From: Utricularia gibba
Taxonomy: Eukaryota; Streptophyta; Magnoliopsida; Lamiales; Lentibulariaceae
Direction of reading: 5' to 3'
NCBI GenBank assembly: GCA_002189035.1
Contig: NEEC01000218.1
Span: forward strand, 1-38,359
Length of the DNA: 38,359 nucleotides
The notes below the pieces were generated by a model. That model had not been told where the DNA came from. It did no database searches and saw only the letters and a program-made list of their open reading frames with translations. The position numbers were made by a program, and so were the translations under genes. Of this stretch, positions 1-36,798 are shown in pieces. Positions within the stretch are counted from its first letter, which is position 1, and each line of letters begins with the position of its first letter.

Positions 1-108
1 TGGGCCCGAGCTCGACTCGACCTCCTGCTCGATACCGTTGCCCCACGAGAGCGCCTTATCAAATATAAAGCATGCGGTTGAGAAAACCATTTTGGGTGCT
101 CATGATAT

Positions 109-149
109 CCTAACTTCAATAACTGCATCACGATTTTCGTCGAGTAGGA
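109..149. other. Invariant core block of the monomer (first of ~124 copies)
   Basis: This 41 bp block runs from CCTAACTTCAATAACTG to TCGTCGAGTAGGA and is the most conserved part of the monomer. I compared all copies by eye and found a single clear departure, the loss of one T near 25637. Flanking bases vary freely: ATGAAATCC, ATGAATCC, ATGATATCC and ATGACATCC on the left, and GGACCCGATG, GGACCAGATT and GGACCGATG on the right. The block holds three CpG sites. A bound protein or a structural role could explain the constraint, but that is inference. Every other anchor position in the array marks another copy of the same block. Confidence 0.85.
130..140. other. Short dyad ACGATTTTCGT inside the invariant core
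   Basis: The arms ACGA and TCGT are perfect inverted complements around a TTT spacer, and the dyad sits at the same place in every monomer. An arm of four bases is short and could arise by chance in one unit. It gains interest only because it lies in the centre of the block that does not vary across the array. It does not fit the CENP-B box consensus. Confidence 0.5.
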
Positions 150-1357
150 CCCGATGTGGCAAAGGAGTCAGACCGAACCTATGGTCAGAACGAAGTTCCA
201 AAAGACATCACCCGCCAGAAACGACAAGCTTTTCCTTGAGAAACTATGTAGGCAGCCTAATAAAGCCGAACGTTAATAAATGCATCAATTTTTTTGCCGG
301 GCTACAAATGACTCTGGGACCGAGCTCGACTCGACCTCCTGCTCGATACCGTTGCCCCACGAGAGTGCCTTATCAAATATAAAGCATGCGGTTGAGAAAA
401 CCTTTTGGGTGCTCATGAATCCTAACTTCAATAACTGCATCACGATTTTCGTCGAGTAGGACCCGATGTGGCAAAGGAGTCAGACCGAACCTTGGGTCAG
501 AACGAAGTTCCCAACGACATCACCCGCCCAGAAACGACAAGCTTTTCCTTGAGAAAACATGTAGGCAGCCTATTAAAACCAACGTTAATAAATGCATCAA
601 GTTTTTTTGCCGAGCTACAAATGACTATGGGCCCGAGCTCGACTCGACCTCCTACTCGATACCGTTGCCCCACGAGAGCGCCTTAAATATAAAGCATGCG
701 GTTGAGAAAACCATTTTGGGTGCTCATGAATCCTAACTTCAATAACTGCATCACGATTTTCGTCGAGTAGGACCCGATGTGGCAAAGGAGTCAGTCAGAA
801 CCTTGGTCGAACGAAGTTCCCAACGACATCACCCGCCAGAAACGACAAGCTTTTCCTTGAGAAACTATGTAGGCAGCCTAAAAGCCCGAACGTTAATAAA
901 TGCATCAATTTTTTGTCGGGCTACAAATGACTCTGGGCCCGAGCTCGACTCGACCTCCTGCTCGATACCGTTGCCCACGAGAGCCCTTATCAAATATAAA
1001 GCATGCGGTTGAGAAAACCATTTTGGGTGCTCATGACATCCTAACTTCAATAACTGCATCACGATTTTCGTCGAGTAGGACCCGATGTGGCAAAGGAGTC
1101 AGACCGAACCTTGGGTCAGAACGAAGTTCCCAACGACATCACCGCCCAGAAACGACAAGCTTTTCCTTGAGAAAACATGTAGGCAGCCTATTAAAACCAA
1201 CGTTAATAATGCATCAAGTTTTTTGCCGGCTACAAATGACTATGGGCCCGAGCTCGACTCGACCTCCTACTCGATACGTTGCCCACGAGAGCGCCTTCAA
1301 ATATAAAGCATGCGGTTGAGAAAACCATTTTGGGTGCTCATGAATCCTAACTTCAAT

Positions 1358-1641
1358 AACTGCATCACGATTTTCGTCGAGTAGGACCCGATGTGGCAAA
1401 GGAGTCAGAGAACTTGGGTCGAACGAAGTTCCAACGACATCACCGCCAGAAACGACAAGCTTTTCCTTGAGAAACTATGTAGGCAGCCTAATAGCGCCGA
1501 ACGTTAATAAATGCATCAATTTTTTGCGGCTACAAATGACTCTGGATCGACCTTTGCCGATACCGTTGCCCACGAGAGCGCCTAAAACAAAGCATGCGAT
1601 TGAGAAAACATTTTGGGTGCTCATGAAATCCTAACTTCAAT
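1358..1641. repeat. Shortened monomer, 284 bp
   Basis: This unit lacks about 25 bp relative to its neighbours. The segment between GACTCTGG and GATACCG is reduced to ATCGACCTTTGCC at about 1545-1558, so the SacI/ApaI-type segment is missing. Its tail (GCCTAAAACAAAGCATGCGATT) resembles class C. The partner in the second copy, at 20374, is full length (306 bp), so the loss probably happened after the 19 kb duplication, in copy 1. Confidence 0.75.
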
Positions 1642-2575
1642 AACTGCATCACGATTTTCGTCGAGTAGGACCCGATGTGGCAAAGGAGTCAGACAGAACC
1701 TTGGGTCCGAACGAAGTTCCAAGACATCACCCGCAGAAACGACAAGCTTTTCCTTGAGAAACTATGTAGGCAGCCTAATAAAGCCGAACGTTAATAAATG
1801 CATCAATTTTTTTGCCGGGCTACAAATGACTCTGGGCCGAGCTCGACTCGACCTCCTGCTCGATACCGTTGCCCCACGAGAGTGCCTTATCAAATATAAA
1901 GCATGCGGTTGAGAAAACCATTTTGGGTGCTCATGATATCCTAACTTCAATAACTGCATCACGATTTTCGTCGAGTAGGACCGATGTGGCAAAGGAGTCA
2001 GACGAACCTATGGTCAGAACGAAGTTCCAAAAGACATCACCCGCCCAGAAACGACAAGCTTTTCCTTGAGAAACTATGTAGGCAGCCTAATAAAGCCGAA
2101 CGTTAATAAATGCATCAATTTTTTTTGCCGGGCTACAAATGACTCTGGGCCGAGCTCGACTCGACCTCCTGCTCGATACCGTTGCCCCACGAGAGTGCCT
2201 TATCAAATATAAAGCATGCGGTTGAGAAAACCATTTTGGGTGCTCATGATATCCTAACTTCAATAACTGCATCACGATTTTCGTCGAGTAGGACCGATGT
2301 GGCAAAGGAGTCAGACCGAACTATGGTCAGAACGAAGTTCCAAAAGACATCACCCGCCCAGAAACGACAAGCTTTTCCTTGAGAAACTATGTAGGCAGCC
2401 TAATAAAGCCGAACGTTAATAAATGCATCAATTTTTTTGCCGGCTACAAATGACTCTGGGCCCGAGCTCGACTCGACCTCTGCTCGATACCGTTGCCCCA
2501 CGAGAGTGCCTTATCAAATATAAAGCATGCGGTTGAGAAAACCATTTTGGGTGCTCATGATATCCTAACTTCAAT

Positions 2576-2889
2576 AACTGCATCACGATTTTCGTCGAGT
2601 AGGACCCGATGTGGCAAAGGAGTCAGACCGAACCTATGGTCAGAACGAAGTTCCAAAAGACATCACCCGCCCAGAAACGACAAGCTTTTCCTTGAGAAAC
2701 TATGTAGGCAGCCTAATAAAGCCGAACGTTAATAAATGCATCAATTTTTTTGCCGGGCTACAAATGACTCTGGGCCGAGCTCGACTCGACCTCCTGCTCG
2801 ATACCGTTGCCCCACGAGAGTGCCTTATCAAATATAAAGCATGCGGTTGAGAAAACCATTTTGGGTGCTCATGATATCCTAACTTCAAT
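2576..2889. repeat. Class A monomer, exemplar
   Basis: This is a clean 314 bp unit. Class A is recognised by CCTATGGTC, CCAAAAGAC, ACTATGTAGG, CTAATAAAGCCG, CAATTTTTTTGCCGG, GACTCTGGG and GAGAGTGCC. This copy also has the private GATATC variant just before the next core. Class A fills the blocks near 1.6-4.1 kb and 6.3-8.2 kb, and in more diverged form 20.7-23.1 kb and 25.3-27.5 kb. Its last third keeps GAGCTC, so SacI should cut it. Confidence 0.85.
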
Positions 2890-3202
2890 AACTGCATCAC
2901 GATTTTCGTCGAGTAGGACCCGATGTGGCAAAGGAGTCAGACCGAACCTATGGTCAGAACGAAGTTCCAAAAGACATCACCCGCCAGAAACGACAAGCTT
3001 TTCCTTGAGAAACTATGTAGGCAGCCTAATAAAGCCGAACGTTAATAAATGCATCAATTTTTTTGCCGGCTACAAATGACTCTGGGCCCGAGCTCGACTC
3101 GACCTCCTGCTCGATACCGTTGCCCCACGAGAGTGCCTTATCAAATATAAAGCATGCGGTTGAGAAAACCATTTTGGGTGCTCATGATATCCTAACTTCA
3201 AT

Positions 3203-3514
3203 AACTGCATCACGATTTTCGTCGAGTAGGACCCGATGTGGCAAAGGAGTCAGACCGAACCTATGGTCAGAACGAAGTTCCAAAAGACATCACCCGCCCA
3301 AAAACGACAAGCTTTTCCTTGAGAAAACATGTAGGCAGCCTATTAAAACCAACGTTAATAAATGCATCAAGTTTTTTGCCGAGCTACAAATGACTATGGG
3401 CCCGAGCTCGACTCGACCTCCTACTCGATACCGTTGCCCCACGAGAGCCCTTATCAAATATAAAGCATGCGGTTGAGAAAACATTTTGGGTGCTCATGAT
3501 ATCCTAACTTCAAT
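3203..3514. repeat. A/B hybrid monomer
   Basis: The front is class A (CCTATGGTC, CCAAAAGAC). It then switches to B-like sequence: GAAAACATGTAGG, ATTAAAACCAACG, CAAGTTTTTTGCCGAGC, GACTATGGG and CCTACTCG. Monomer 22230 has the same front-to-back switch at the same monomer number in the second 19 kb copy. Such hybrids are what unequal exchange or gene conversion between classes leaves behind. Confidence 0.7.
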
Positions 3515-4139
3515 AACTGCATCACGATTTTCGTCGAGTAGGACCCGATGTGGCAAAGGAGTCAGACCGAACCTATGGTCAGAACGAAGTTCCAAAAGAC
3601 ATCACCCGCCCAGAAACGACAAGCTTTTCCTTGAGAAACTATGTAGGCAGCCTAATAAAGCCGAACGTTAATAAATGCATCAATTTTTTTTTGCCGGGCT
3701 ACAAATGACTCTGGGCCCGAGCTCGACTCGACCTCCTGCTCGATACCGTTGCCCCACGAGAGTGCCTTATCAAATATAAAGCATGCGGTTGAGAAAACCA
3801 TTTTGGGTGCTCATGATATCCTAACTTCAATAACTGCATCACGATTTTCGTCGAGTAGGACCCGATGTGGCAAAGGAGTCAGACCGAACCTATGGTCAGA
3901 ACGAAGTTCCAAAAGACATCACCGCCCAGAAACGACAAGCTTTTCCTTGAGAAACTATGTAGGCAGCCTATTAAAACCGAACGTTAATAAATGCATCAAT
4001 TTTTTTGCCGGCTAAAAATGACTCTGGCGAGCTCGACTCGACCTTTTGCCCGATACCGTGCCCCACGAGAGCGCCTCCTCAAATATAAAGCATGCGATTG
4101 AGAAAACATTTTGGGTGCTCATGAAATCCTAACTTCAAT

Positions 4140-6302
4140 AACTGCATCACGATTTTCGTCGAGTAGGACCAGATTTGGCAAAGGAGTCAGACCGAACCTT
4201 GGGTCAGAACGAAGTTCCAACGACATCACCCGCCAAAAACGACAAGCTTTTCCTTGAGAAACCATTGAGGCAGCCTATTAAAACCAAACGTTAATAAATG
4301 CATCAATTTTTTTGCCGGGCTACAAATGACTCTGGCCCGAGCTCGACTCGACCTCCTGCTCGATACCGTTGCCCCACGAGAGCCTCAAATATAAAGCATG
4401 CGGTTGAGAAAACCATTTTGGGTGCTCATGAATCCTAACTTCAATAACTGCATCACGATTTTCGTCGAGTAGGACCCGATGTGGCAAAGGAGTCAGACCG
4501 AACCTATGGTCAGAACGAAGTTCCAAACGACATCACCCGCCCAGAAACGACAAGCTTTTCCTTGAGAAACTATGTAGGCAGCCTAATAAAGCCGAACGTT
4601 AATAAATGCATCAATTTTTTTTGCCGGCTACAAATGACTCTGGGGAGCTCGACTCGACCTCCTGCCGATACCGTGCCCCACGAGAGCGCCTCCTCAAATA
4701 TAAAGCATGCGATTGAAAAACATTTTGGGTGCTCATGAAATCCTAACTTCAATAACTGCATCACGATTTTCGTCGAGTAGGACCGATTGGCAAAGGAGTC
4801 AGACCGAACCTTGGGTCAGAACGAAGTTCCAACGACATCACCCGCCCAAAAACGACAAGCTTTTCCTTGAGAAAACTTGAGGCAGCCTATTAAAACCAAC
4901 CGTTAATAAATGCATCAAGTTTTTTTGCCGCTACAAATGACTATGGGCCCGAGCTCGACTCGACCTCCTGCTCGATACCGTTGCCCCACGAGAGCACCTT
5001 ATCAAATATAAAGCATGCGGTTGAGAAAACCATTTTGGGTGCTCATGAAATCCTAACTTCAATAACTGCATCACGATTTTCGTCGAGTAGGACCCGATGT
5101 GGCAAAGGAGTCAGACGAACCTATGGTCAGAACGAAGTTCAAAAGACATCACCCGCCAGAAACGACAAGCTTTTCCTTGAGAAACTATGTAGGCAGCCTA
5201 TTAAAACCCAACGTTAATAAATGCATCAATTTTTTTGCCGGCTAAATGACTCTGGCGAGCCCGACTCGACCTCCTGCTCGATACCGTTGCCCCACGAGAG
5301 CGCCTCCTCAATATAAAAGCATGCGGTTGAAAACATTTTGGGTGCTCATGAAATCCTAACTTCAATAACTGCATCACGATTTTCGTCGAGTAGGACCAGA
5401 TTTGGCAAAGGAGACAGACCGAACCTTGGGTCAGAACGAAGTTCACAACGACATCACCGCCCAAAAACGACAAGCTTTTCCTTGAGAAAACCATGAGGCA
5501 GCCTATTAAAACCAACCGTTAATAAATGCATCAAGTTTTTTGCCGAGCTACAAATGACTATGGGCCCGAGCTCGACTCGACCTCCTACTCGATACCGTTG
5601 CCCCACGAGAGCACCTTATCAAATATAAAGCATGCGGTTGAGAAAACCATTTTGGGTGCTCATGAAATCCTAACTTCAATAACTGCATCACGATTTTCGT
5701 CGAGTAGGACCCGATGTGGCAAAGGAGTCAGACCGAACCTATGGTCAGAACGAAGTTCCAAAAGACATCACCCCCAGAAACGACAAGCTTTTCCTTGAGA
5801 AACCATGTAGGCAGCCTATTAAAACCCAACGTTAATAAATGCATCACTTTTTTGCAGGCTAAAAATGACTCTGGGAGCGAGCCCGACTCGACCTTTTGCC
5901 CGATACCGTGCCCCACTAGAGCGCCTCCTCAACTACAAAGCATGCGATTGACAAAAGCATTTTGGGTGCTCATGAAATCCTAACTTCAATAACTGCATCA
6001 CGATTTTCGTCGAGTAGGACCAGATTTGGCAAAGGAGACAGACCGAACCTTGGGTCAGAACGAAGTTCAACGACATCACCCGCCCAAAAACGACAAGCTT
6101 TTCCTTGAGAAAACCATTGAGGCAGCCTATTAAAACCAACGTTAATAAATGCATCAAGTTTTTTGCCGAGCTACAAATGACTATGGGCCCGAGCTCGACT
6201 CGACCTCCTACTCGATACCGTTGCCCCACGAGAGTGCCTTATCAAATATAAAGCATGCGGTTGAGAAAACCATTTTGGGTGCTCATGAATCCTAACTTCA
6301 AT
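4140..6302. repeat. B alternating with A/C-type monomers, first copy
   Basis: The anchors are 4140 (B), 4446 (A/C), 4754 (B), 5064 (A/C), 5367 (B), 5681 (C) and 5991 (B). The B unit at 4754 has two unusual marks, GATTGGC (one T short) and AAAACTTGAGGC. Both recur in the partner monomer 23785 of the second copy. The alternation with period about 610-620 bp announces the dimer organisation that dominates later. Confidence 0.75.
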
Positions 6303-8480
6303 AACTGCATCACGATTTTCGTCGAGTAGGACCCGATGTGGCAAAGGAGTCAGACGAACCTATGGTCAGAACGAAGTTCCAAAAGACATCACCGCCCAGA
6401 AACGACAAGCTTTTCCTTGAGAAACTATGTAGGCAGCCTAATAAAACCGAACGTTAATAAATGCATCAATTTTTTTGCCGGGCTAAAAATGACTCTGGGC
6501 CGAGCTCGACTCGACCTCCTGCTCGATACCGTTGCCCCACGAGAGTGCCTTATCAAATATAAAGCATGCGGTTGAGAAAACCATTTTGGGTGCTCATGAA
6601 TCCTAACTTCAATAACTGCATCACGATTTTCGTCGAGTAGGACCCGATGTGGCAAAGGAGTCAGACCGAACCTATGGTCAGAACGAAGTTCCAAAAGACA
6701 TCACCCGCCCAGAAACGACAAGCTTTTCCTTGAGAAACTATGTAGGCAGCCTAATAAAGCCGAACGTTAATAAATGCATCAATTTTTTTGCCGGGCTACA
6801 AATGACTCTGGGCCGAGCTCGACTCGACCTCCTGCTCGATACCGTTGCCCCCACGAGAGTGCCTTATCAAATATAAAGCATGCGGTTGAGAAAACCATTT
6901 TGGGTGCTCATGAATCCTAACTTCAATAACTGCATCACGATTTTCGTCGAGTAGGACCCGATGTGGCAAAGGAGTCAGACCGAACCTTGGTCAGAACGAA
7001 GTTCCAAAAGACATCACCCGCCCAGAAACGACAAGCTTTTCCTTGAGAAACTATGTAGGCAGCCTAATAAAGCCGAACGTTAATAAATGCATCAATTTTT
7101 TTTTGCCGGGCTACAAATGACTCTGGGCCGAGCTCGACTCGACCTCCTGCTCGATACCGTTGCCCCACGAGAGTGCCTTATCAAATATAAAGCATGCGGT
7201 TGAGAAAACCATTTTGGGTGCTCATGAATCCTAACTTCAATAACTGCATCACGATTTTCGTCGAGTAGGACCCGATGTGGCAAAGGAGTCAGACCGAACC
7301 TATGGTCAGAACGAAGTTCCAAAAGACATCACCCGCCCAGAAACGACAAGCTTTTCCTTGAGAAACTATGTAGGCAGCCTAATAAAGCCGAACGTTAATA
7401 AATGCATCAATTTTTTTTTGCCGGGCTACAAATGACTCTGGGCCCAGCTCGACTCGACCTCCTGCTCGATACCGTTGCCCCACGAGAGTGCCTTATCAAA
7501 TATAAAGCATGCGGTTGAGAAAACCATTTTGGGTGCTCATGAATCCTAACTTCAATAACTGCATCACGATTTTCGTCGAGTAGGACCCGATGTGGCAAAG
7601 GAGTCAGACCGAACCTATGGTCAGAACGAAGTTCCAAAGACATCACCCGCCAAAAACGACAAGCTTTTCCTTGAGAAAACCATGTAGGCCTATTAAAACC
7701 AACGTTAATAAATGCATCAAGTTTTTTTGCCGAGCTACAAATGACTATGGGCCCGAGCTCGACTCGACCTCCTACTCGATACCGTTGCCCACGAGAGCCC
7801 TTATCAAATATAAAGCATGCGGTTGAGAAAACATTTTGGGTGCTCATGAATCCTAACTTCAATAACTGCATCACGATTTTCGTCGAGTAGGACCCGATGT
7901 GGCAAAGGAGTCAGACCGAACCTTGGTCAGAACGAAGTTCCAAAAGACATCACCCGCCCAGAAACGACAAGCTTTTCCTTGAGAAACTATGTAGGCAGCC
8001 TAATAAAGCCGAACGTTAATAAATGCATCAATTTTTTTGCCGGGCTACAAATGACTCTGGGCCCGAGCTCGACTCGACCTCCTGCTCGATACCGTTGCCC
8101 CACGAGAGTGCCTTATCAAATATAAAGCATGCGGTTGAGAAAACCATTTTGGGTGCTCATGAATCCTAACTTCAATAACTGCATCACGATTTTCGTCGAG
8201 TAGGACCCGATGTGGCAAAGGAGTCAGACCGAACCTATGGTCAGAACGAAGTTCCAAAAGACATCACCCGCCCAGAAACGACAAGCTTTTCCTTGAGAAA
8301 CCATGTAGGCAGCCTATTAAAACCCGTTAATAAATGCATCACTTTTTTGACAGGCTAAAAAATGACTGGGCGAGCCCGACTCGACCTTTGCCGATACCGT
8401 GCCCCACTAGAGCGCCTCCTCAACTACAAAGCATGCGATTGAAAAAGCATTTTGGGTGCTCATGAAATCCTAACTTCAAT
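6303..8480. repeat. Second class A block, first copy
   Basis: The anchors are 6303, 6614, 6928, 7242, 7557, 7864 and 8177. These are A units with ATGAATCC before the core rather than ATGATATCC. The unit at 7557 is an A/B hybrid and the unit at 8177 turns to class C (T run with GACAGGC). The same order (A, A, A, A, hybrid, A, A/C) is found at 25329-27492. Confidence 0.8.
7557..7863. repeat. A/B hybrid monomer, partner of 26567
   Basis: A-type CCTATGGTC is followed by CCATGTAGG, ATTAAAACCAACG, CAAGTTTTTTTGCCGAGC and GACTATGGG. The unit 19,010 bp downstream at 26567 has the same structure. Here the GCAG after ATGTAGG is lost, so it reads ATGTAGGCCTATT. Confidence 0.7.
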
Positions 8481-10021
8481 AACTGCATCACGATTTTCGT
8501 CGAGTAGGACCAGATTTGGCAAAGGAGACAGACCGAACCTTGGGTCAGAACGAAGTTCCAACGACATCACCCGCCCAAAAACGACAAGCTTTTCCTTGAG
8601 AAAACCATTGAGGCAGCCTATTAAAACCAACGTTAATAAATGCATCAATTTTTTTTTGCCGAGCTACAAATGACTCTGGCCCGAGCTCGACTCGACCTCC
8701 TGCTCGATACCGTTGCCCCACGAGAGTGCCTTATCAAATATAAAGCATGCGGTTGAGAAAACCATTTTGGGTGCTCATGAATCCTAACTTCAATAACTGC
8801 ATCACGATTTTCGTCGAGTAGGACCCGATGTGGCAAAGGAGTCAGACCGAACCTATGGTCAGAACGAAGTTCCAAATCACACCGCCCAGAAACGACAAGC
8901 TTTTCCTTGAGAAACTATGGCAGCCTAATTAAAGCCGAACGTTAATAAATGCATCAATTTTTTTGCCGGGCTACAAATGACTCTGGGCGAGCCCGACTCG
9001 ACCTTTTGCCCGATACCGTGCCCCACGAGCGCCTCAAATACAAAGCATGCGATTGAGAAAACATTTTGGGTGCTCATGAAATCCTAACTTCAATAACTGC
9101 ATCACGATTTTCGTCGAGTAGGACCCGATTGGCAAAGGAGTCAGACCGAACCTTGGGTCAGAACGAAGTTCACAACGACATCACCCGCCCAAAAAACGAC
9201 AAGCTTTTCCTTGAGAAACTTGAGGCAGCCTATTAAACCAACGTTAATAAATGCATCAAGTTTTTTTGCCGAGCTACAAATGACTATGGGCCCGAGCTCG
9301 ACTCGACCTCCTACTCGATACCGTTGCCCCACGAGAGCACCTTATCAAATATAAAGCATGCGGTTGAGAAAACCATTTTGGGTGCTCATGAATCCTAACT
9401 TCAATAACTGCATCACGATTTTCGTCGAGTAGGACCCGATGTGGCAAAGGAGTCAGACCGAACCTATGGTCAGAACGAAGTTCCAAAAGACATCACCCGC
9501 CCAGAAACGACAAGCTTTTCCTTGAGAAACATGTAGGCAGCCTATTAAAACCCAACGTTAATAAATGCATCAATTTTTTTGACAGGCTAAAAATGACTCT
9601 GGCGAGCCCGACTCGACCTCGCCCGATACCGTGCCCCACGAGAGCGCCTCCTCAAATACAAAGCATGCGATTGAAAAACATTTTGGGTGCTCATGAAATC
9701 CTAACTTCAATAACTGCATCACGATTTTCGTCGAGTAGGACCAGATTTGGCAAAGGAGACAGACCGAACCTTGGGTCAGAACGAAGTTCACAACGACATC
9801 ACCGCCCAAAAACGACAAGCTTTTCCTTGAGAAACCATTGAGGCAGCCTATTAAAACAACGTTAATAAATGCATCAAGTTTTTTGCCGAGCTACAAATGA
9901 CTATGGGCCCGAGCTCGACTCGACCTCCTACTCGATACCGTTGCCCCACGAGAGCCTTATCAAATATAAAGCATGCGGTTGAGAAAACCATTTTGGGTGC
10001 TCATGAAATCCTAACTTCAAT
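8481..10021. repeat. B/C dimer run leading into tetramers, first copy
   Basis: The anchors are 8481 (B), 8795 (A/C hybrid), 9095 (B), 9406 (C) and 9712 (B). The B unit at 8481 has a CAATTTTTTTT run with GACTCTGG, unlike normal B. The unit at 27493 shares this. The B at 9095 has GATTGGC and AACTTGAGGC, as does 28113. The C at 9406 reads CTCTGGCGAGCCCG (the GGCG starts at 9601); its partner is at 28617, an offset of 19,016 bp. Confidence 0.75.
8795..9094. repeat. A/C hybrid monomer, partner of 27808
   Basis: This 300 bp unit is A-like up to GCCGGGCTACAAATGACTC and then C-like from GGGCGAGCCCGACTCG on. The same switch point is seen in the unit at 27808. It also has several small deletions, including loss of GTAG in ACTATGGCAGCC. 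Confidence 0.7.
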
Positions 10022-11259
10022 AACTGCATCACGATTTTCGTCGAGTAGGACCCGATGTGGCAAAGGAGTCAGACCGAACCTATGGTCAGAACGAAGTTCC
10101 AAAAGACATCACCCCCAGAAACGACAAGCTTTTCCTTGAGAAACCATGTAGGCAGCCTATTAAAACCAACGTTAATAAATGCATCACTTTTTTGACAGGC
10201 TAAAAATGACTCTGGGAGCGAGCCCCGACTCGACCTTTTGCCGATACCGTGCCCCACTAGAGCGCCTCTCAATACAAAGCATGCGATTGACAAAAGCATT
10301 TTGGGTGCTCATGAAATCCTAACTTCAATAACTGCATCACGATTTTCGTCGAGTAGGACCAGATTTGGCAAAGGAGACAGACCGAACCTTGGGTCAGAAC
10401 GAAGTTCACAACGACATCACCGCCCAAAAACGACAAGCTTTTCCTTGAGAAACCATTGAGGCAGCCTATTAAAACCAACCGTTAATAAATGCATCAAGTT
10501 TTTTGCCGAGCTACAAATGACTATGGGCCCGAGCTCGACTCGACCTCCTACTCGATACCGTTGCCCCACGAGAGCACCTTATCAAATATAAAGCATGCGG
10601 TTGAGAAAACCATTTTGGGTGCTCATGAAATCCTAACTTCAATAACTGCATCACGATTTTCGTCGAGTAGGACCGATGTGGCAAGGACAGACCGAACCTT
10701 GGGTCAGAACGAAGTTCCAACGAAATCACCCGCCCAAAAACGACAAGCTTTTCCTTGAGAAACAATGTAGGCAGCCTATTAAAACCCAACGTTAATAAAT
10801 GCATCAAGTTTTTTTAGCTACAAATGACTATGGCCGAGCTCGACTCGACCTCCTGCTCGATACCGTGCCCCACTAGAGCGCCTCCTCAACTACAAAGCAT
10901 GCGATTGAAAAACATTTTGGGTGCTCATGAAATCCTAACTTCAATAACTGCATCACGATTTTCGTCGAGTAGGACCAGATTTGGCAAAGGAGACAGACCG
11001 AACCTTGGGTCAGAACGAAGTTCACAACGACATCACCCGCCCAAAAACGACAAGCTTTTCCTTGAGAAACCATTGAGGCAGCCTATTAAAACCAACGTTA
11101 ATAAATGCATCAAGTTTTTTGCCGAGCTACAAATGACTATGGGCCCGAGCTCGACTCGACCTCCTACTCGATACCGTTGCCCCACGAGAGCACCTTATCA
11201 AATATAAAGCATGCGGTTGAGAAAACCATTTTGGGTGCTCATGAAATCCTAACTTCAAT
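10022..11259. repeat. C-B-D-B higher-order unit 1, first copy (1238 bp)
   Basis: Monomers are C at 10022, B at 10330, D at 10644 and B at 10946. This is the first complete four-monomer unit of the run. The D unit contains a local loss of GCCG in the T-run region (TTTTTTTAGCTAC near 10810). Its partner in the second copy is 29045-30275. Confidence 0.75.
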
Positions 11260-16466: not shown

Positions 16467-16472
16467 CTTGAG
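16462..16472. other. Deletion junction fusing two monomers
   Basis: The spacing between anchors 16233 and 16667 is 434 bp, which is neither one monomer (about 310) nor two (about 620). The left side ends in ACCGTTGCC, normally followed by CCACGAGAG. The right side begins at TTGAGAAACTATG, normally preceded by CTTTTCC. Two C bases are common to both ends. Comparison with the second copy (35245-35861) shows that about 180-190 bp present there is missing here. The sequence to the right then matches 35666 onward (ACTATGTAGGCAGCCTA, then GGGCCGAGCTCG). Confidence 0.8.
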
Positions 16473-25328: not shown

Positions 25329-27492
25329 AACTGCATCACGATTTTCGTCGAGTAGGACCCGATGTGGCAAAGGAGTCAGACCGAACCTATGGTCAGAACG
25401 AAGTTCAAAAGACATCACCCGCCCAGAAACGACAAGCTTTTCCTTGAGAAACTATGTAGGCAGCCTATAAAACCAACGTTAATAAATGCATCAATTTTTT
25501 TGCCGGGCTACAAATGACTCTGGGCCGAGCTCGACTCGACCTCCTGCTCGATACCGTTGCCCCACGAGAGCGCCTTATCAAATATAAAGCATGCGGTTGA
25601 GAAAACATTTTGGGTGCTCATGAAATCCTAACTTCAAAACTGCATCACGATTTTCGTCGAGTAGGACCCGATGTGGCAAAGGAGTCAGACCGAACCTTGG
25701 TCAGAACGAAGTTCCAAAAGACATCACCGCCCAGAAACGACAAGCTTTTCCTTGAGAAACCATGTAGGCAGCCTATTAAAACCAACGTTAATAAATGCAT
25801 CAATTTTTTTGCCGGCTACAAATGACTCTGGGCCCGAGCTCGACTCGACCTCCTGCTCGATACCGTTGCCCCACGAGAGCGCCTTATCAAATATAAAGCA
25901 TGCGGTTGAGAAAACCATTTTGGGTGCTCATGAAATCCTAACTTCAATAACTGCATCACGATTTTCGTCGAGTAGGACCCGATGTGGCAAAGGAGTCAGA
26001 CCGAACCTTGGTCAGAACGAAGTTCCAAAAGACATCACCCGCCCAGAAACGACAAGCTTTTCCTTGAGAAACCATGTAGGCAGCCTATTAAAACCCAACG
26101 TTAATAAATGCATCAATTTTTTTGCCGGGCTACAAATGACTCTGGGCCGAGCTCGACTCGACCTCCTGCTCGATACCGTTGCCCCACGAGAGCCTTATCT
26201 ATAAAGCATGCGGTTGAGAAAACCATTTTGGGTGCTCATGAATCCTAACTTCAATAACTGCATCACGATTTTCGTCGAGTAGGACCCGATGTGGCAAAGG
26301 AGTCAGACCGAACCTTGGTCAGAACGAAGTTCAAAAGACATCACCCGCCCAGAAACGACAAGCTTTTCCTTGAGAAACTATGTAGGCAGCCTATTAAAAC
26401 CAACGTTAATAAATGCATCAATTTTTTTGCCGGGCTACAAATGACTCTGGGCCCGAGCTCGACTCGACCTCCTGCTCGATACCGTTGCCCCACGAGAGTG
26501 CCTTATCAAATATAAAGCATGCGGTTGAGAAAACCATTTTGGGTGCTCATGAATCCTAACTTCAATAACTGCATCACGATTTTCGTCGAGTAGGACCGAT
26601 GTGGCAAAGGAGTCAGACCGAACCTATGGTCAGAACGAAGTTCCAAAAGACATCACCCCAAAAAACGACAAGCTTTTCCTGAGAAACCATGTAGGCAGCC
26701 TATTAAAACCAACGTTAATAAATGCATCAAGTTTTTTTGCCGAGCTACAAATGACTATGGGCCGAGCTCGACTCGACCTCCTACTCGATACCGTTGCCCC
26801 ACGAGAGCCCTTATCAAATATAAAGCATGCGGTTGAGAAAACCATTTTGGGTGCTCATGAATCCTAACTTCAATAACTGCATCACGATTTTCGTCGAGTA
26901 GGACCCGATGTGGCAAAGGAGTCAGACCGAACCTTGGTCAGAACGAAGTTCCAAAGACATCACCCGCCAGAAACGACAAGCTTTTCCTTGAGAAACTATG
27001 TAGGCAGCCTATAAAACCAACGTTAATAAATGCATCAATTTTTTTGCCGGGCTACAAATGACTCTGGGCCGAGCTCGACTCGACCTCTGCTCGATACCGT
27101 TGCCCCACGAGAGTGCCTTATCAAATATAAAGCATGCGGTTGAGAAAACCATTTTGGGTGCTCATGAATCCTAACTTCAATAACTGCATCACGATTTTCG
27201 TCGAGTAGGACCCGATGTGGCAAAGGAGTCAGACCGAACCTATGGTCAGAACGAAGTTCCAAAAGACATCACCCGCCCAGAAACGACAAGCTTTTCTTGA
27301 GAAACCATGTAGGCAGCCTATTAAAACCCAACGTTAATAAATGCATCACTTTTTTTGACAGGCTAAAAATGACTCTGGGCGAGCCCGACTCGACCTTTTG
27401 CCCGATACCGTGCCCCACTAGAGCGCCTCCTCAACTACAAAGCATGCGATTGACAAAAGCATTTTGGGTGCTCATGAAATCCTAACTTCAAT
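25329..27492. repeat. Second class A block, second copy
   Basis: The anchors are 25329, 25638, 25949, 26256, 26567, 26875 and 27182. The sequence is A-like but mixed with CCTTGGTC and ATTAAAACCAACG. The only change seen in the invariant core lies here (ACTTCAAAACTGC at 25631). The unit 26567 is an A/B hybrid matching 7557, and 27182 ends as class C, as 8177 does. Confidence 0.75.
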
Positions 27493-29044
27493 AACTGCAT
27501 CACGATTTTCGTCGAGTAGGACCAGATTTGGCAAAGGAGACAGACCGAACCTTGGGTCAGAACGAAGTTCCAACGACATCACCCGCCCAAAAACGACAAG
27601 CTTTTCCTTGAGAAAACCATTGAGGCAGCCTATTAAAACCAACCGTTAATAAATGCATCAATTTTTTTTGCCGAGCTACAAATGACTCTGGGCCCGAGCT
27701 CGACTCGACCTCCTGCTCGATACCGTTGCCCCACGAGAGTGCCTTATCAAATATAAAGCATGCGGTTGAGAAAACCATTTTGGGTGCTCATGAATCCTAA
27801 CTTCAATAACTGCATCACGATTTTCGTCGAGTAGGACCCGATGTGGCAAAGGAGTCAGACCGAACCTATGGTCAGAACGAAGTTCCAAAAGAATCACCCG
27901 CCAAAAACGACAAGCTTTTCCTTGAGAAACTATGTAGGCAGCCTAAAAACCAACGTTAATAAATGCATCAATTTTTTTGCGGGCTACAAATGACTCTGGG
28001 CGAGCCCGACTCGACCTTTGCCCGATACCGTGCCCCACTAGAGCGCCTCCTCAACTACAAAGCATGCGATTGACAAAAGCATTTTGGGTGCTCATGAAAT
28101 CCTAACTTCAATAACTGCATCACGATTTTCGTCGAGTAGGACCAGATTGGCAAAGGAGACAGACCGAACCTTGGGTCAGAAAAGTTCACAACGACATCAC
28201 CCGCCCAAAACGACAAGCTTTTCCTTGAGAAAACTTGAGGCAGCCTATTAAAACCAACGTTAATAAATGCATCAAGTTTTTTGCCGAGCTACAAATGACT
28301 ATGGGCCCGAGCTCGACTCGACCTCCTACTCGATACCGTTGCCCCACGAGAGCACCTTATCAAATATAAAGCATGCGGTTGAGAAAACCATTTTGGGTGC
28401 TCATGAAATCCTAACTTCAATAACTGCATCACGATTTTCGTCGAGTAGGACCCGATGTGGCAAAGGAGTCAGACCGAACCTATGGTCAGAACGAAGTTCC
28501 AAAAGACATCACCCGCCCAGAAACGACAAGCTTTTCCTTGAGAAACCTTGTAGGCAGCCTATTAAAACCCAACGTTAATAAATGCATCACTTTTTTGACA
28601 GGCTAAAAATGACTCTGGCGAGCCCGACTCGACCTTTTGCCCGATACCGTGCCCCACTAGAGCGCCTCCTCAACTACAAAGCATGCGATTGAAAAAGCAT
28701 TTTGGGTGCTCATGAAATCCTAACTTCAATAACTGCATCACGATTTTCGTCGAGTAGGACCAGATTTGGCAAAGGAGACAGACCGAACCTTGGGTCAGAA
28801 CGAAGTTCACAACGACATCACCCGCCCAAAAACGACAAGCTTTTCCTTGAGAAAACCATTGAGGCAGCCTATTAAAACCAACCGTTAATAAATGCATCAA
28901 GTTTTTTGCCGAGCTACAAATGACTATGGGCCCGAGCTCGACTCGACCTCCTACTCGATACCGTTGCCCCACGAGAGCCTTATCAAATATAAAGCATGCG
29001 GTTGAGAAAACCATTTTGGGTGCTCATGAAATCCTAACTTCAAT
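27493..29044. repeat. B/C dimer run leading into tetramers, second copy
   Basis: The anchors are 27493 (B with CAATTTTTTTT), 27808 (A/C hybrid), 28113 (B with GATTGGC and AACTTGAGGC), 28422 (C with CTCTGGCGAGCCCG) and 28731 (B). All five match the five monomers at 8481-9712, in order, at offsets of 19,012-19,019 bp. Confidence 0.75.
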
Positions 29045-30275
29045 AACTGCATCACGATTTTCGTCGAGTAGGACCCGATGTGGCAAAGGTCAGACCGAAC
29101 CTATGGTCAGAACGAAGTTCCAAAGACATCACCCCAAAAACGACAAGCTTTTCCTTGAGAAACCATGTAGGCAGCCTATTAAAACCAACGTTAATAAATG
29201 CATCAATTTTTTTGCCGGCTAAAATGACTCTGGGCGAGCCGACTCGACCTTGCCGATACCGTGCCCCACGAGAGCGCCTCCTCAAATATAAAGCATGCGG
29301 TTGAAAAACATTTTGGGTGCTCATGAAATCCTAACTTCAATAACTGCATCACGATTTTCGTCGAGTAGGACCAGATTTGGCAAAGAGACAGACCGAACCT
29401 TGGGTCAGAACGAAGTTCACAACGACATCACCCGCCCAAAACGACAAGCTTTTCCTTGAGAAAACCATTGAGGCAGCCTATTAAAACCAACCGTTAATAA
29501 ATGCATCAAGTTTTTTGCCGAGCTACAAATGACTATGGGCCGAGCTCGACTCGACCTCCTACTCGATACCGTTGCCCCACGAGAGCACCTTATCAAATAT
29601 AAAGCATGCGGTTGAGAAAACCATTTTGGGTGCTCATGAACCTAACTTCAATAACTGCATCACGATTTTCGTCGAGTAGGACCCGATTTGGCAAAGGAGT
29701 CAGACCGAACCTTGGTCAGAACGAAGTTCACAACGACATCACCCGCCCAAAAACGACAAGCTTTTCCTTGAGAAAACAATGTAGGCAGCCTATTAAAACC
29801 AACGTTAATAATGCATCAAGTTTTTTGCCGAGCTACAAATGACTCTGGGCCCGAGCTCGACTCGACCTCCTGCTCGATACCGTGCCCCACTAGAGCGCCT
29901 CCTCAACTACAAAGCATGCGATTGAAAACATTTTGGGTGCTCATGAAATCCTAACTTCAATAACTGCATCACGATTTTCGTCGAGTAGGACCAGATTTGG
30001 CAAAGGAGACAGACCGAACCTTGGGTCAGAACGAAGTTCACAACGACATCACCGCCCAAAAACGACAAGCTTTTCCTTGAGAAAACCATTGAGGCAGCCT
30101 ATTAAAACCAACGTTAATAAATGCATCAAGTTTTTTGCCGAGCTACAAATGACTATGGGCCCGAGCTCGACTCGACCTCCTACTCGATACCGTTGCCCCA
30201 CGAGAGCACCTTATCAAATATAAAGCATGCGGTTGAGAAAACCATTTTGGGTGCTCATGAAATCCTAACTTCAAT
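29045..30275. repeat. C-B-D-B higher-order unit 1, second copy (1231 bp)
   Basis: Monomers are C-like at 29045, B at 29342, D at 29653 and B at 29962. The first monomer is short (297 bp) and atypical: it has CAATTTTTTTGCCGGC and a GCATGCGG tail rather than the usual class C tail. It still has CCGACTCGACCTTGCCG. The reading as C is therefore tentative. Confidence 0.6.
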
Positions 30276-31517
30276 AACTGCATCACGATTTTCGTCGAGT
30301 AGGACCCGATGTGGCAAAGGAGTCAGACCGAACCTATGGTCAGAACGAAGTTCCAAAAGACATCACCCGCCCAGAAACGACAAGCTTTTCCTTGAGAAAC
30401 CATGTAGGCAGCCTATTAAAACCAACGTTAATAAATGCATCACTTTTTTTGACAGGCTAAAAATGACTCTGGGCGAGCCCGACTCGACCTTTGCCCGATA
30501 CCGTGCCCACTAGAGCGCCTCCTCAACTACAAAGCATGCGATTGAAAAGCATTTTGGGTGCTCATGAAATCCTAACTTCAATAACTGCATCACGATTTTC
30601 GTCGAGTAGGACCAGATTTGGCAAAGGAGACAGACCGAACCTTGGGTCAGAACGAAGTTCACAACGACATCACCCGCCCAAAAACGACAAGCTTTTCCTT
30701 GAGAAAACCATTGAGGCAGCCTATTAAAACCAACCGTTAATAAATGCATCAAGTTTTTTGCCGAGCTACAAATGACTATGGGCCCGAGCTCGACTCGACC
30801 TCCTACTCGATACCGTTGCCCCACGAGAGCACTTATCAAATATAAAGCATGCGGTTGAGAAAACCATTTTGGGTGCTCATGAAATCCTAACTTCAATAAC
30901 TGCATCACGATTTTCGTCGAGTAGGACCCGATGTGGCAAAGGAGTCAGACCGAACCTTGGGTCAGAACGAAGTTCACAACGAAATCACCCGCCCAAAAAC
31001 GACAAGCTTTTCCTTGAGAAACAATGTAGGCAGCCTATAAAAACCAACGTTAATAAATGCATCAATTTTTTGCCGGCTACAAATGACTCTGGGCGAGCTC
31101 GACTCGACCTGCTCGATACCGTGCCCCACTAGAGCGCCTCCTCAACTACAAAGCATGCGATTGAAAAGCATTTTGGGTGCTCATGAAATCCTAACTTCAA
31201 TAACTGCATCACGATTTTCGTCGAGTAGGACCAGATTTGGCAAAGGAGACAGACCGAACCTTGGGTCAGAACGAAGTTCACAACGACATCACCCGCCCAA
31301 AAACGACAAGCTTTTCCTTGAGAAAACCATTGAGGCAGCCTATTAAAACCAACCGTTAATAAATGCATCAAGTTTTTTGCCGAGCTACAAATGACTATGG
31401 GCCCGAGCTCGACTCGACCTCCTACTCGATACCGTTGCCCCACGAGAGCACCTTATCAAATATAAAGCATGCGGTTGAGAAAACCATTTTGGGTGCTCAT
31501 GAAATCCTAACTTCAAT
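30276..31517. repeat. C-B-D-B higher-order unit 2, second copy (1242 bp)
   Basis: Monomers are C at 30276, B at 30583, D at 30898 and B at 31202. The D carries CACAACGAAATC and CAATGTAGG, as 11882 does. Confidence 0.75.
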
Positions 31518-32756
31518 AACTGCATCACGATTTTCGTCGAGTAGGACCCGATGTGGCAAAGGAGTCAGACCGAACCTATGGTCAGAACGAAGTTCCAAAA
31601 GACATCACCCGCCCAGAAACGACAAGCTTTTCCTTGAGAAACCATGTAGGCAGCCTATTAAAACCCAACGTTAATAAATGCATCACTTTTTTTGCAGGCT
31701 AAAAATGACTCTGGGCGAGCCCGACTCGACCTTTTGCCCGATACCGTGCCCCACTAGAGCGCCTCCTCAACTACAAAGCATGCGATTTAAAAGCATTTTG
31801 GGTGCTCATGAAATCCTAACTTCAATAACTGCATCACGATTTTCGTCGAGTAGGACCAGATTTGGCAAAGGAGACAGACCGAACCTTGGGTCAGAACGAA
31901 GTTCACAACGACATCACCGCCCAAAAAACGACAAGCTTTTCCTTGAGAAAACCATTGAGGCAGCCTATTAAAACCAACCGTTAATAAATGCATCAAGTTT
32001 TTTGCCGAGCTACAAATGACTATGGGCCCGAGCTCGACTCGACCTCCTACTCGATACCGTTGCCCCACGAGAGCACCTTATCAAATATAAAGCATGCGGT
32101 TGAGAAAACCATTTTGGGTGCTCATGAAATCCTAACTTCAATAACTGCATCACGATTTTCGTCGAGTAGGACCCGATGTGGCAAAGGAGTCAGACCGAAC
32201 CTTGGTCAGAACGAAGTTCCAACGACATCACCCGCCAAAAACGACAAGCTTTTCCTTGAGAAAACAATGTAGGCAGCTATTAAAACCCAACGTTAATAAT
32301 GCATCAAGTTTTTTGCCGAGCTACAAATGACTATGGGCCGAGCTCGACTCGACCTTGCCGATACCGTGCCCCACTAGAGCGCCTCCTCAATACAAAGCAT
32401 GCGATTGAAAAACATTTTGGGTGCTCATGAAATCCTAACTTCAATAACTGCATCACGATTTTCGTCGAGTAGGACCAGATTTGGCAAAGGAGACAGACCG
32501 AACCTTGGGTCAGAACGAAGTTCACAACGACATCACCCGCCCAAAAACGACAAGCTTTTCCTTGAGAAAACCATTGAGGCAGCCTATTAAAACCAACGTT
32601 AATAAATGCATCAAGTTTTTTGCCGAGCTACAAATGACTATGGGAGCTCGACTCGACCTCCTACTCGATACCGTTGCCCCACGAGAGCACCTTATCAAAT
32701 ATAAAGCATGCGGTTGAGAAAACCATTTTGGGTGCTCATGAAATCCTAACTTCAAT
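31518..32756. repeat. C-B-D-B higher-order unit 3, second copy (1239 bp)
   Basis: Monomers are C at 31518, B at 31827, D at 32143 and B at 32446. The tail of the C reads GCATGCGATTTAAAAGC, a variant otherwise seen only near 13378. That lies in a different monomer of the tetramer, so it was moved or arose twice. Confidence 0.75.
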
Positions 32757-33380
32757 AACTGCATCACGATTTTCGTCGAGTAGGACCCGATGTGGCAAAG
32801 GAGTCAGACCGAACCTATGGTCAGAACGAAGTTCCAAAAGACATCACCCGCCCAGAAACGACAAGCTTTTCCTTGAGAAACCATGTAGGCAGCCTATTAA
32901 AACCCAACGTTAATAAATGCATCACTTTTTTTGACAGGCTAAAAATGACTCTGGGCGAGCCCGACTCGACCTTTTGCCCGATACCGTGCCCACTAGAGCG
33001 CCTCCTCAACTACAAAGCATGCGATTGAAAAGCATTTTGGGTGCTCATGAAATCCTAACTTCAATAACTGCATCACGATTTTCGTCGAGTAGGACCAGAT
33101 TTGGCAAAGGAGACAGACCGAACCTTGGGTCAGAACGAAGTTCACAACGACATCACCGCCCAAAAACGACAAGCTTTTCCTTGAGAAAACCATTGAGGCA
33201 GCCTATTAAAACCAACCGTTAATAAATGCATCAAGTTTTTTGCCGAGCTACAAATGACTATGGGCCCGAGCTCGACTCGACCTCCTACTCGATACCGTTG
33301 CCCCACGAGAGCACCTTATCAAATATAAAGCATGCGGTTGAGAAAACCATTTTGGGTGCTCATGAAATCCTAACTTCAAT
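32757..33380. repeat. C-B half-unit (phase slip), second copy
   Basis: C at 32757 and B at 33066 are followed by C at 33381. The slip sits after the same two full tetramers as the one at 13738, at an offset of 19,019 bp. Confidence 0.75.
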
Positions 33381-34616
33381 AACTGCATCACGATTTTCGT
33401 CGAGTAGGACCCGATGTGGCAAAGGAGTCAGACCGAACCTATGGTCAGAACGAAGTTCCAAAAGACATCACCCCAGAAACGACAAGCTTTTCCTTGAGAA
33501 ACCATGTAGGCAGCCTATTAAAACCCAACGTTAATAAATGCATCACTTTTTTTGCAGCTAAAATGACTCTGGGAGCGAGCCGACTCGACCTTTTGCCGAT
33601 ACCGTGCCCCACTAGAGCGCTCCTCAACTACAAAGCATGCGATTGAAAAACATTTTGGGTGCTCATGAATCCTAACTTCAATAACTGCATCACGATTTTC
33701 GTCGAGTAGGACCAGATTTGGCAAAGGAGACAGACCGAACCTTGGGTCAGAACGAAGTTCACAACGACATCACCGCCAAAAACGACAAGCTTTTCCTTGA
33801 GAAAACCATTGAGGCAGCCTATTAAAACCAACCGTTAATAAATGCATCAAGTTTTTTGCCGAGCTACAAATGACTATGGGCCCGAGCTCGACTCGACCTC
33901 CTACTCGATACCGTTGCCCCACGAGAGCACCTTATCAAATATAAAGCATGCGGTTGAGAAAACCATTTTGGGTGCTCATGAAATCCTAACTTCAATAACT
34001 GCATCACGATTTTCGTCGAGTAGGACCGATTGGCAAAGGAGACAGACCGAACCTTGGGTCAGAACGAAGTTCACAAACAATCACCCGCCAAAAACGACAA
34101 GCTTTTCCTTGAGAAACATGTAGGCAGCCTATTAAAACCCAACGTTAATAAATGCATCAATTTTTTGCCGAGCTACAAATGACTATGGGCCCGAGCTCGA
34201 CTCGACCTCCTGCTCGATACCGTGCCCCACTAGAGCGCCTCCTCAATACAAAGCATGCGATTGAAAAGCATTTTGGGTGCTCATGAAATCCTAACTTCAA
34301 TAACTGCATCACGATTTTCGTCGAGTAGGACCAGATTTGGCAAAGGAGACAGACCGAACCTTGGGTCAGAACGAAGTTCACAACGACATCACCCGCCCAA
34401 AAACGACAAGCTTTTCCTTGAGAAAACCATTGAGGCAGCCTATTAAAACCAACGTTAATAAATGCATCAAGTTTTTTGCCGAGCTACAAATGACTATGGG
34501 CCCGAGCTCGACTCGACCTCCTACTCGATACCGTTGCCCCACGAGAGCACCTTATCAAATATAAAGCATGCGGTTGAGAAAACCATTTTGGGTGCTCATG
34601 AAATCCTAACTTCAAT
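33381..34616. repeat. C-B-D-B higher-order unit 4, second copy (1236 bp)
   Basis: Monomers are C at 33381 (GGGAGCGAGCCGACTCG), B at 33683, D at 33997 and B at 34302. The D has GAAACATGTAGG, close to 14988, and CACAAACAATC, a further eroded form. Confidence 0.75.
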
Positions 34617-35551
34617 AACTGCATCACGATTTTCGTCGAGTAGGACCCGATGTGGCAAAGGAGTCAGACCGAACCTATGGTCAGAACGAAGTTCCAAAAG
34701 ACATCACCCGCCCAGAAACGACAAGCTTTTCCTTGAGAAACCATGTAGGCAGCCTATTAAAACCCAACGTTAATAAATGCATCACTTTTTTTGACAGGCT
34801 AAAAATGACTCTGGGAGCGAGCCCGACTCGACCTTTTGCCCGATACCGTGCCCCACTAGAGCGCCTCCTCAACTACAAAGCATGCGATTGACAAAAGCAT
34901 TTTGGGTGCTCATGAAATCCTAACTTCAATAACTGCATCACGATTTTCGTCGAGTAGGACCAGATTTGGCAAAGGAGACAGACCGAACCTTGGGTCAGAA
35001 CGAAGTTCACAACGACATCACCCGCCAAAAACGACAAGCTTTTCCTTGAGAAAACCATTGAGGCAGCCTATTAAAACCAACCGTTAATAAATGCATCAAG
35101 TTTTTTGCCGAGCTACAAATGACTATGGGCCCGAGCTCGACTCGACCTCCTACTCGATACCGTTGCCCACGAGAGCACCTTATCAAATATAAAGCATGCG
35201 GTTGAGAAAACCATTTTGGGTGCTCATGAAATCCTAACTTCAATAACTGCATCACGATTTTCGTCGAGTAGGACCGATGTGGCAAAGGAGACAGACCGAA
35301 CCTTGGGTCAGAACGAAGTTCACAACGACATCACCCGCCCAAAAACGACAAGCTTTTCCTTGAGAAACAATGTAGCTATTAAAACCCAACGTTAATTAAA
35401 TGCATCAAGTTTTTTGCCGAGCTACAAATGACTATGGGCCCGAGCTCGACTCGACCTCCTGCTCGATACCGTTGCCCCACGAGAGCGCCTTCAAATATAA
35501 AGCATGCGGTTGAGAAAACCATTTTGGGTGCTCATGAATCCTAACTTCAAT
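34617..35551. repeat. C-B-D higher-order unit 5, second copy (935 bp)
   Basis: Monomers are C at 34617 (GGGAGCGAGCCCG), B at 34931 and D at 35245. The D is full length and continues with GTTGCCCCACGAGAGCGCC, which shows what was lost at 16466 in the first copy. Confidence 0.75.
35392..35399. other. TTAATTAA variant in a D monomer, second copy
   Basis: The sequence GTTAATTAAATGC lies in the D monomer anchored at 35245. It marks the same D position as 16384 in the first copy and so supports their common origin. Confidence 0.85.
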
Positions 35552-36798
35552 AACTGCATCACGATTTTCGTCGAGTAGGACCCGATGTGGCAAAGGAGTC
35601 AGACCGAACCTTGGTCAGAACGAAGTTCCAACGACATCACCCGCCCAGAAACGACAAGCTTTTCTTGAGAAACTATGTAGGCAGCCTATAAAGCCGAACG
35701 TTAATAAATGCATCAATTTTTTTGCCGGGCTACAAATGACTCTGGGCCGAGCTCGACTCGACCTCCTGCTCGATACCGTTGCCCCACGAGAGCGCCTTAT
35801 CAAATATAAAGCATGCGGTTGAGAAAACCATTTTGGGTGCTCATGAATCCTAACTTCAATAACTGCATCACGATTTTCGTCGAGTAGGACCCGATGTGGC
35901 AAAGGAGTCAGACCGAACCTGGTCAGAACGAAGTTCCAAAAGACATCACCCGCCCAGAAACGACAAGCTTTTCCTTGAGAAACTATGTAGGCAGCCTAAT
36001 AAAGCCGAACGTTAATAAATGCATCAATTTTTTTTGCCGGGCTACAAATGACTCTGGGCCGAGCTCGACTCGACCTCCTGCTCGATACCGTTGCCCACGA
36101 GAGTGCCTTATCAAATATAAAGCATGCGGTTGAGAAAACCATTTTGGGTGCTCATGATATCCTAACTTCAATAACTGCATCACGATTTTCGTCGAGTAGG
36201 ACCCGATGTGGCAAAGGAGTCAGACCGAACCTATGGTCAGAACGAAGTTCCAAAAGACATCACCCGCCAGAAACGACAAGCTTTTCCTTGAGAAACCATG
36301 TAGGCAGCCTATTAAAACCCAACGTTAATAAATGCATCACTTTTTTTTGACAGGCTAAAAATGACTCTGGGAGCGAGCCCGACTCGACCTTTTGCCCGAT
36401 ACCGTTGCCCCACTAGAGCGCCTCCTCAACTACAAAGCATGCGATTGACAAAAGCATTTTGGGTGCTCATGAAATCCTAACTTCAATAACTGCATCACGA
36501 TTTTCGTCGAGTAGGACCAGATTTGGCAAAGGAGACAGACCGAACCTTGGTCAGAACGAAGTTCACAACGACATCACCCGCCAAAAACGACAAGCTTTTC
36601 CTTGAGAAAACCATTGAGGCAGCCTATTAAAACCAACCGTTAATAAATGCATCAAGTTTTTTGCCGAGCTACAAATGACTATGGGCCCGAGCTCGACTCG
36701 ACCTCCTACTCGATACCGTTGCCCACGAGAGCCTTATCAAATATAAAGCATGCGGTTGAGAAAACCATTTTGGGTGCTCATGAAATCCTAACTTCAAT
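35552..36798. repeat. E, A, C, B tail of the second 19 kb copy
   Basis: The anchors are 35552 (E-like, with CTTTTCTTGAG), 35861 (A), 36173 (C, with the GATATC variant before its core at 36156) and 36488 (B). The last three match 16667, 16981 and 17289. The correspondence with the first copy ends within or just after the B monomer. Confidence 0.65.

Follow-up and report, generated by a model that had tools for sequence, protein, structure and literature searches.

Does a plant satellite array grow by single monomers and short groups of them, or can a stretch of dozens of monomers be copied as one piece? This question is raised by contig NEEC01000218.1 of Utricularia gibba (GenBank assembly GCA_002189035.1), referred to here as C52. 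The window analyzed is the entire contig of 38,359 bp, which consists wholly of one head-to-tail satellite array (positions 1–38,359, forward strand; 310–311 bp per monomer, Tandem Repeats Finder period 311, 123.5 monomers). A preliminary description of this DNA had proposed a tandem duplication of about 19.0 kb, or some 61 monomers, traceable from the window start to about 16.4 kb and implying the amplification of long segments. The long repeat is present, and its homology reaches further than proposed, to about 17.6 kb in the first copy and 36.8 kb in the second. Amplification of long segments is likewise supported, since the 61-monomer order recurs on another contig, C213; a single simple tandem duplication is an incomplete picture, since there are at least three copies and their relationship switches along the block.

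A long block recurs within the contig

The assembly examined comprises 100,091,633 bases in 516 contigs; TTTAGGG repeats at the ends of contigs and genes for chlorophyll-binding proteins mark it as that of a plant. Monomers were cut at a conserved anchor and then compared pairwise within a sample of 780 monomers from six contigs; pairs differing in length by more than 60 bp were assigned a distance of 99. Collinear runs were scored as 4 minus the number of substitutions, per monomer, with substitutions clipped at 12 in the run scores and in the means derived from them. A 37-base stretch of the monomer, measured from the anchor, is identical at 123 places in the window. A 29-base core is exact in 779 of the 780 sampled monomers, an inflated figure, as monomers with insertions or deletions in the core were never cut.

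Exact-word matching placed an offset of 61 monomers first at word sizes of 30, 50, 80 and 120. Local alignment at the monomer level paired monomers 0–55 with monomers 61–117, with one monomer gained or lost. The first copy thus spans positions 1–17,599 (forward strand; a partial monomer at 1–120 followed by monomers 0–55), its left end being cut by the contig start, and base-level alignment runs from position 1 against position 19,016. The second copy spans 19,016–36,798 (forward strand; a partial monomer to 19,134 followed by monomers 61–117) and was delimited by base- and monomer-level alignment. No repeat at +61 was found for monomers 54–60.

Across the 55 aligned pairs at offset 61, identity was 96.85% and substitutions amounted to 0.69%, compared with 1.97% at the dimer offset and 3.51% across all pairs. 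The diagonal at about 19 kb therefore stands above the dimer and tetramer diagonals, as the preliminary description had anticipated: whole-contig identity was 94.68% at offset 2 and 94.63% at offset 4, and 92.4% across all 7,381 pairs. Neighboring offsets were also less similar, with identities of 94.97%, 95.12%, 94.64% and 94.74% at offsets 57, 59, 63 and 65 (monomers 0–51), so this comparison, put forward earlier as a possible refutation, does not refute the duplication. The five example pairs given earlier (3203/22230, 4754/23785, 7557/26567, 9095/28113 and 13738/32757) all fall on monomer starts, at offsets of 19,027, 19,031, 19,010, 19,018 and 19,019 bp and with 2, 2, 1, 2 and 0 substitutions, respectively. 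The margin shrinks when unmatched tails are included: BLAST of one half against the other yielded 95.35%, compared with 93.94% at a shift of one dimer and 94.09% at a shift of two. When the array was cut with one mutated anchor missed, the peak was split over indices 60 and 61, and the margin fell to 94.9% against 94.8%. Projection of the monomers onto one consensus also placed offset 61 first (mean 5.05 differences vs. 8.17 at offset 57); these consensus-projection haplotypes were dropped in favor of pair distances because dense deletions become false alleles.

The run score within C52 was 94 at offset 61 (next best offset 34). Shuffling the array in blocks of 2, 4, 8, 12 and 16 monomers, 300 times each, yielded maxima of 27, 33, 45, 61 and 80, and the C52 run of 52 monomers had the highest run score in the all-against-all comparison of the 780 monomers. 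C52 therefore contains a long collinear block that beats both neighboring offsets and shuffled arrays, as a segmental duplication within a satellite array should. The likeness of the two copies is uneven, with a mean of 3.15 substitutions per monomer in monomers 0–25 and 1.26 in monomers 26–53 (irregular monomer left out). Individual monomers are rarely diagnostic: among the 779 others, the monomer at i+61 was unbeaten as the nearest neighbor for 19 of 52 monomers and uniquely best for 1 of 52.

The evidence rests instead on monomer order and on uncommon classes, as common classes match widely. Clustering assigned 726 of the 780 monomers to classes, and the same class was found at 37 of 61 positions for offset 61, an agreement of 61%; no other offset from 20 to 62 exceeded 38%. 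Three classes uncommon in the sample are concentrated in C52 (four of the 8 J monomers, four of the 7 K monomers and all 5 O monomers), and each forms two pairs at +61. Within positions 3,203–8,794 (forward strand), the class J monomers at 3203 and 7557 are partnered by those at 22230 and 26567, and the class K monomers at 4140 and 8481 by those at 23163 and 27493; within 10,644–15,293 (forward strand), the class O monomers at 10644 and 14988 are partnered by those at 29653 and 33997. Overall, 7 of the 15 uncommon-class monomers among 0–51 keep their class at +61, against 0–3 at eight other offsets. A class O query returned no match above 96%, in a list that is incomplete, the query's own locus being unlisted as well.

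A third copy on another contig

A search with a class K monomer gave two good matches on C213, a contig of 3,704,653 bp, lying 14 monomers apart, the same spacing as in C52. Because these matches pointed there, the last 48.7 kb of C213 (3.656–3.7047 Mb) were fetched. A strict anchor at first yielded 316 monomers from C213, and renewed splitting of the 48.7-kb piece then gave 156. On the reverse strand of C213, from about 3,687,209 to 3,668,436, C52 monomers 53–113 (positions 16,667–35,551, forward strand) are matched, all 61 in one register, with a score of 76 and a mean of 2.75 substitutions. In the corresponding register, copy 1 monomers 1–51 score 84 with a mean of 2.35, and the nearest even-shift registers are worse for both (4.77–6.87 and 4.08–7.00, respectively). 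The fit is uneven: at most 2 substitutions were found in 36 of 61 and 37 of 51 monomers, and at least 8 in 2 and 6 monomers; the two outliers among the 61 carry 11 and 12. Block shuffles of C213 with 4, 8 or 16 monomers per block (100 trials each) reached at most 36, 46 and 83, respectively, compared with the observed 84. C52 scored no higher than 25 against the remaining 114 kb of C213 that were read, and 9–31 against contigs C93, C34, C201 and C144.

The same block is thus found independently of C52; the 61-monomer unit exists outside that contig and is therefore not a product of its assembly. Copy-1 states that lack a copy-2 counterpart recur in C213 at monomers 5, 7, 8, 21, 22 and 32. Moreover, the C213 counterparts of monomers 53–60 (positions 16,667–19,134, forward strand) directly precede the block there, with 2, 4, 4, 2, 1, 2, 7 and 0 substitutions, and therefore the unit can be 61 monomers long without a spacer. 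Monomers 53–55 are ambiguous in this respect, as they also match monomers 115–117 at the end of copy 2 (0, 1 and 1 substitutions).

Relationships among the copies

Near 10.6 kb of the window, copy 1 changes its closest relative, from the C213 copy on the left to copy 2 on the right. For monomers 0–12 and 13–25, copy 1 differs from C213 by 1.54 and 1.46 substitutions and from copy 2 by 3.00 and 3.31. The three copies are about equidistant for monomers 26–33 (2.00, 1.75 and 1.75), and for monomers 34–43 and 44–51 the order is reversed, with 1.60 and 0.00 substitutions to copy 2 and 4.60 and 3.12 to C213. Over 52 monomers, the strictly closest pair was copy 1 with copy 2 in 15 cases, copy 1 with C213 in 13 and copy 2 with C213 in 3. 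Copy 1 carries classes T and D at monomers 28 and 32, positions occupied by V and H in both copy 2 and contig C93; in the sample, class V occurs only in C52 and C93, and class H is more widespread. With copy-1 states present in C213 and copy-2 states in C93, both versions of the block are seen outside C52.

A shorter tandem duplication of 14 monomers is nested within the block. In copy 1, it occupies positions 1,952–10,643 (forward strand; halves at 1,952–6,302 and 6,303–10,643) with a mean of 1.57 substitutions at offset 14, and in copy 2 it occupies 20,992–29,652 (forward strand) with a mean of 1.79. Its counterpart in C213 is less regular, with 3.00 substitutions and one monomer at 15. Class B is found in both nested halves of copy 1 (monomers 7 and 21) and class E in both halves of copy 2 (monomers 68 and 82). 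This pattern is consistent with exchange at a local scale once the long duplication had formed, and a consensus built from mixed reads would give the same picture.

Consensus quality and competing explanations

The quality of the consensus bears directly on how these copies can be interpreted. In 464 monomers from five contigs, 3,013 deleted bases were counted, compared with 55 substitutions outside class sites. With the 21 monomers of irregular length excluded (443 monomers remaining), the deletion rate was 6.1% at class sites, about 1% at a distance of 2–9 bases and 0 at 15 bases or more. On C213, the 7 monomers adjoining unique sequence carry 1.43 deletions per monomer along with 8.43 private substitutions, the following 8 monomers already carry 9.12 deletions each, and 10-kb bins further in carry about 5.5–10.7 deletions and 0.05–3.47 private substitutions per monomer. 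These small deletions look like the result of consensus calling over mixed copies, and therefore they cannot be taken as biology, and tandem order read from C52 alone is unsafe. A candidate shared deletion, the short monomer 4 of copy 1 and its C213 partner, was dropped, as the missing bases differ.

We consider it likely that a stretch of 61 monomers was block-copied at least twice by homology-driven exchange or re-copying, that C52 and C213 carry the products, and that segments were exchanged later. Under this explanation, the 19-kb stretch would have been copied as one piece through misaligned exchange or re-copying, that is, unequal sister-chromatid exchange or break-induced replication, and one product would lie head to tail in C52 and another in the C213 array. 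Subsequent exchange of segments may have left the left part of copy 1 nearest to C213 and its right part nearest to copy 2. Unequal exchange and break-induced replication are both described as models in a review (PMC8997354). Either would copy a long block in register; both are favored here, with neither preferred over the other. The shared monomer order, the third copy and the switch in relationship are directly observed; the mechanism and the order of events are inferred, as is the true adjacency in the plant of the two copies in C52.

Several observations weigh against this explanation. Shuffles in 16-monomer blocks come close to the score observed within C52 and closer still for C213, where they fall short by a single point; such blocks preserve real shared segments, and much of the shared order survives them. 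Eight of the 15 uncommon-class monomers change class at +61, and monomers resembling class K at 98–99% also occur on C193, C75 and C118, so the class is not private. The C213 segment was chosen through its class K matches and hence is no random sample. Its right flank is not clearly common with C52, with a mismatch in the same register from monomer 114 onward; that flank matches monomers 116–120 one register away (2, 0, 2, 1 and 2 substitutions), in classes that are common there. Finally, most internal deletions look like consensus errors, and the consensus may also mix copies.

The last point leads to an assembly explanation that we regard as improbable, though one to be reckoned with: reads from two real 19-kb copies, separate or allelic, could have been joined head to tail in C52. 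The assembly was made with HGAP from reads with a mean length of 10,385 at 88x (PMC5793159), below the 17 kb of homology. Sites at which monomer classes differ show the most deletions, and deletions are rare beside unique sequence, though already frequent in the next 8 monomers; this is expected if reads of different copies were mixed. The switch of closest relative inside copy 1 also agrees with this explanation. However, copy 1 has class states of its own and a 434-bp monomer absent from copy 2, and past that monomer the contig continues into monomers 56–60 rather than into the right flank of copy 2, so that one false join seems insufficient. The simpler artefact, a single locus assembled twice within C52, is scarcely credible. 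The offset lies near half of the contig, and monomers 44–51 of copy 1 carry no substitutions relative to copy 2. Nevertheless, the classes that distinguish the copies also occur in other places (copy 1 has F and H where copy 2 has D, and V is present in copy 2 as well as in C93), monomers 54–60 lack a repeat at +61, gap columns are only mildly common to the two copies (mean percentile 0.32 over 24 pairs; 0.5 would indicate no sharing), and the comparisons with C213 and C93 largely refute double assembly.

Two further explanations accept the block as real and interpret it differently. A true 61-monomer higher-order repeat (HOR) with many copies in the array would account for the presence of the unit in at least three copies, and the copies differ by 0.69% against 3.51% between monomers, yet monomers of the left part differ by 3.15 substitutions each. 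We hold this to be very unlikely: C93, C34, C201, C144 and two stretches of C213 showed no prominent period of 61 monomers, in a limited test where the four contigs measure 27–28 kb and overlap little at 19 kb and where missed anchors shift the C213 count, and the best C52 matches in these four contigs and in the first stretch of C213 score just 9–31. It is also unlikely, to a slightly lesser degree, that the block is a moving unit of 19 kb with fixed ends (monomers 53 to 113), excised or copied, perhaps through a circle, and then inserted next to itself as well as at another place in the array, with the out-of-phase 434-bp monomer as its closing joint. Block copying by exchange or re-copying, followed by exchange of segments, remains the explanation that we prefer.

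The irregular 434-bp monomer

The one monomer gained or lost in the alignment of the two copies coincides with an aberrant monomer of 434 bp at positions 16,233–16,666 (forward strand), which was recognized by Tandem Repeats Finder and by monomer comparison and which copy 2 lacks. Its first 235 bp are A-like and its last 199 bp are B-like, with the fusion after position 16,467. It is a candidate for the head-to-tail joint of the duplication or, alternatively, for a 182-bp deletion in copy 1. Its identification as a certain duplication joint was rejected, as neither half has a specific match. The right half matches the monomer preceding the C213 unit with 0 substitutions and 4 gap columns, a lowest count common to 37 of 271 monomers. 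The left half matches monomers 38 (1 substitution, 19 gap columns) and 113 (2 substitutions, 8 gap columns), and strings common to the 434-bp monomer and monomer 113 are also present in other monomers. For such an out-of-phase monomer to form, ends would have to be joined, or templates switched, where the sequences do not match. Two 122-bp direct copies with 88% matches, at 16,346–16,589, derive from the out-of-phase fusion within this one monomer. C213 also has monomers of 435, 414 and 406 bp.

The satellite elsewhere in the genome

The C52 block is the highest-scoring of the sampled duplications and is not alone among them. C213 contains one of 17 monomers at offset 26 (0.65 substitutions) and one of 21 monomers at offset 28, C34 contains others at offsets 19 and 36 (13 and 19 monomers), and several more were found in C93 and between C34 and C213. 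In the assembly as a whole, 9,524 matches to a 24-base segment of the core were counted when up to two mismatches were allowed, and the 29-base core has 3,893 exact matches; from these core counts, we estimate that the 310-bp satellite totals roughly 3 Mb of the 100-Mb assembly.

The array on C213 extends from about 3,486 kb (3,486,181) to the contig end at 3,704,653, about 218 kb, with satellite everywhere that was read or sampled; the part at 3,598–3,656 kb was only sampled. The sequence just outside this array resembles, by eye, what we take to be the end of a Copia-type retrotransposon. Between about 3.521 and 3.561 Mb, monomers carry 1.75–3.47 private substitutions each, above most of the array interior, and this part is perhaps an older or less homogenized zone.

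In a list of core matches (up to two mismatches) running in contig order, none appeared before C34, and C3 has telomere repeats both at its beginning and close to 5.347 Mb. These two observations suggest that the satellite is not present on every chromosome. Putative centromeric regions of Utricularia gibba have been reported to be without satellite repeats (PMC8333044).

Comparison with known systems and significance

Events of this kind are already known from pea and human satellites; the present case is ordinary in kind and large in size. In pea centromere 6, large portions of the FabTR-107 and FabTR-85 satellite arrays are duplicated (PMC10027222). That study examined CENH3 association, whereas the array order in C52 rests on draft contigs. 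Human alpha satellite includes a 52mer on chromosome 21 (PMC12385485) and a 34mer on the Y chromosome (PMC8997354). As in these long units, dozens of monomers have been copied as a block that contains shorter nested periods; unlike in human alpha satellite, three copies are seen here, they have diverged unevenly, and 61 is not established as the ruling period of the array. In Arabidopsis, the HORs of CEN180 mostly comprise 2–3 monomers per unit, with conversion tracts of about 125 bp (PMC12321929). Like CEN180, the Utricularia gibba array is a plant satellite whose monomers undergo local duplication and conversion, and it differs from those short units in its 61-monomer block. A literature search yielded no description of this 310-bp satellite, which is weak evidence, as the assembly paper (10.1073/pnas.1702072114) lay outside that search. 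With three copies and marker monomers, the block offers a traceable case in which a plant satellite grows by segments of dozens of monomers that subsequently exchange parts. Its value is that of an example rather than of a new principle.

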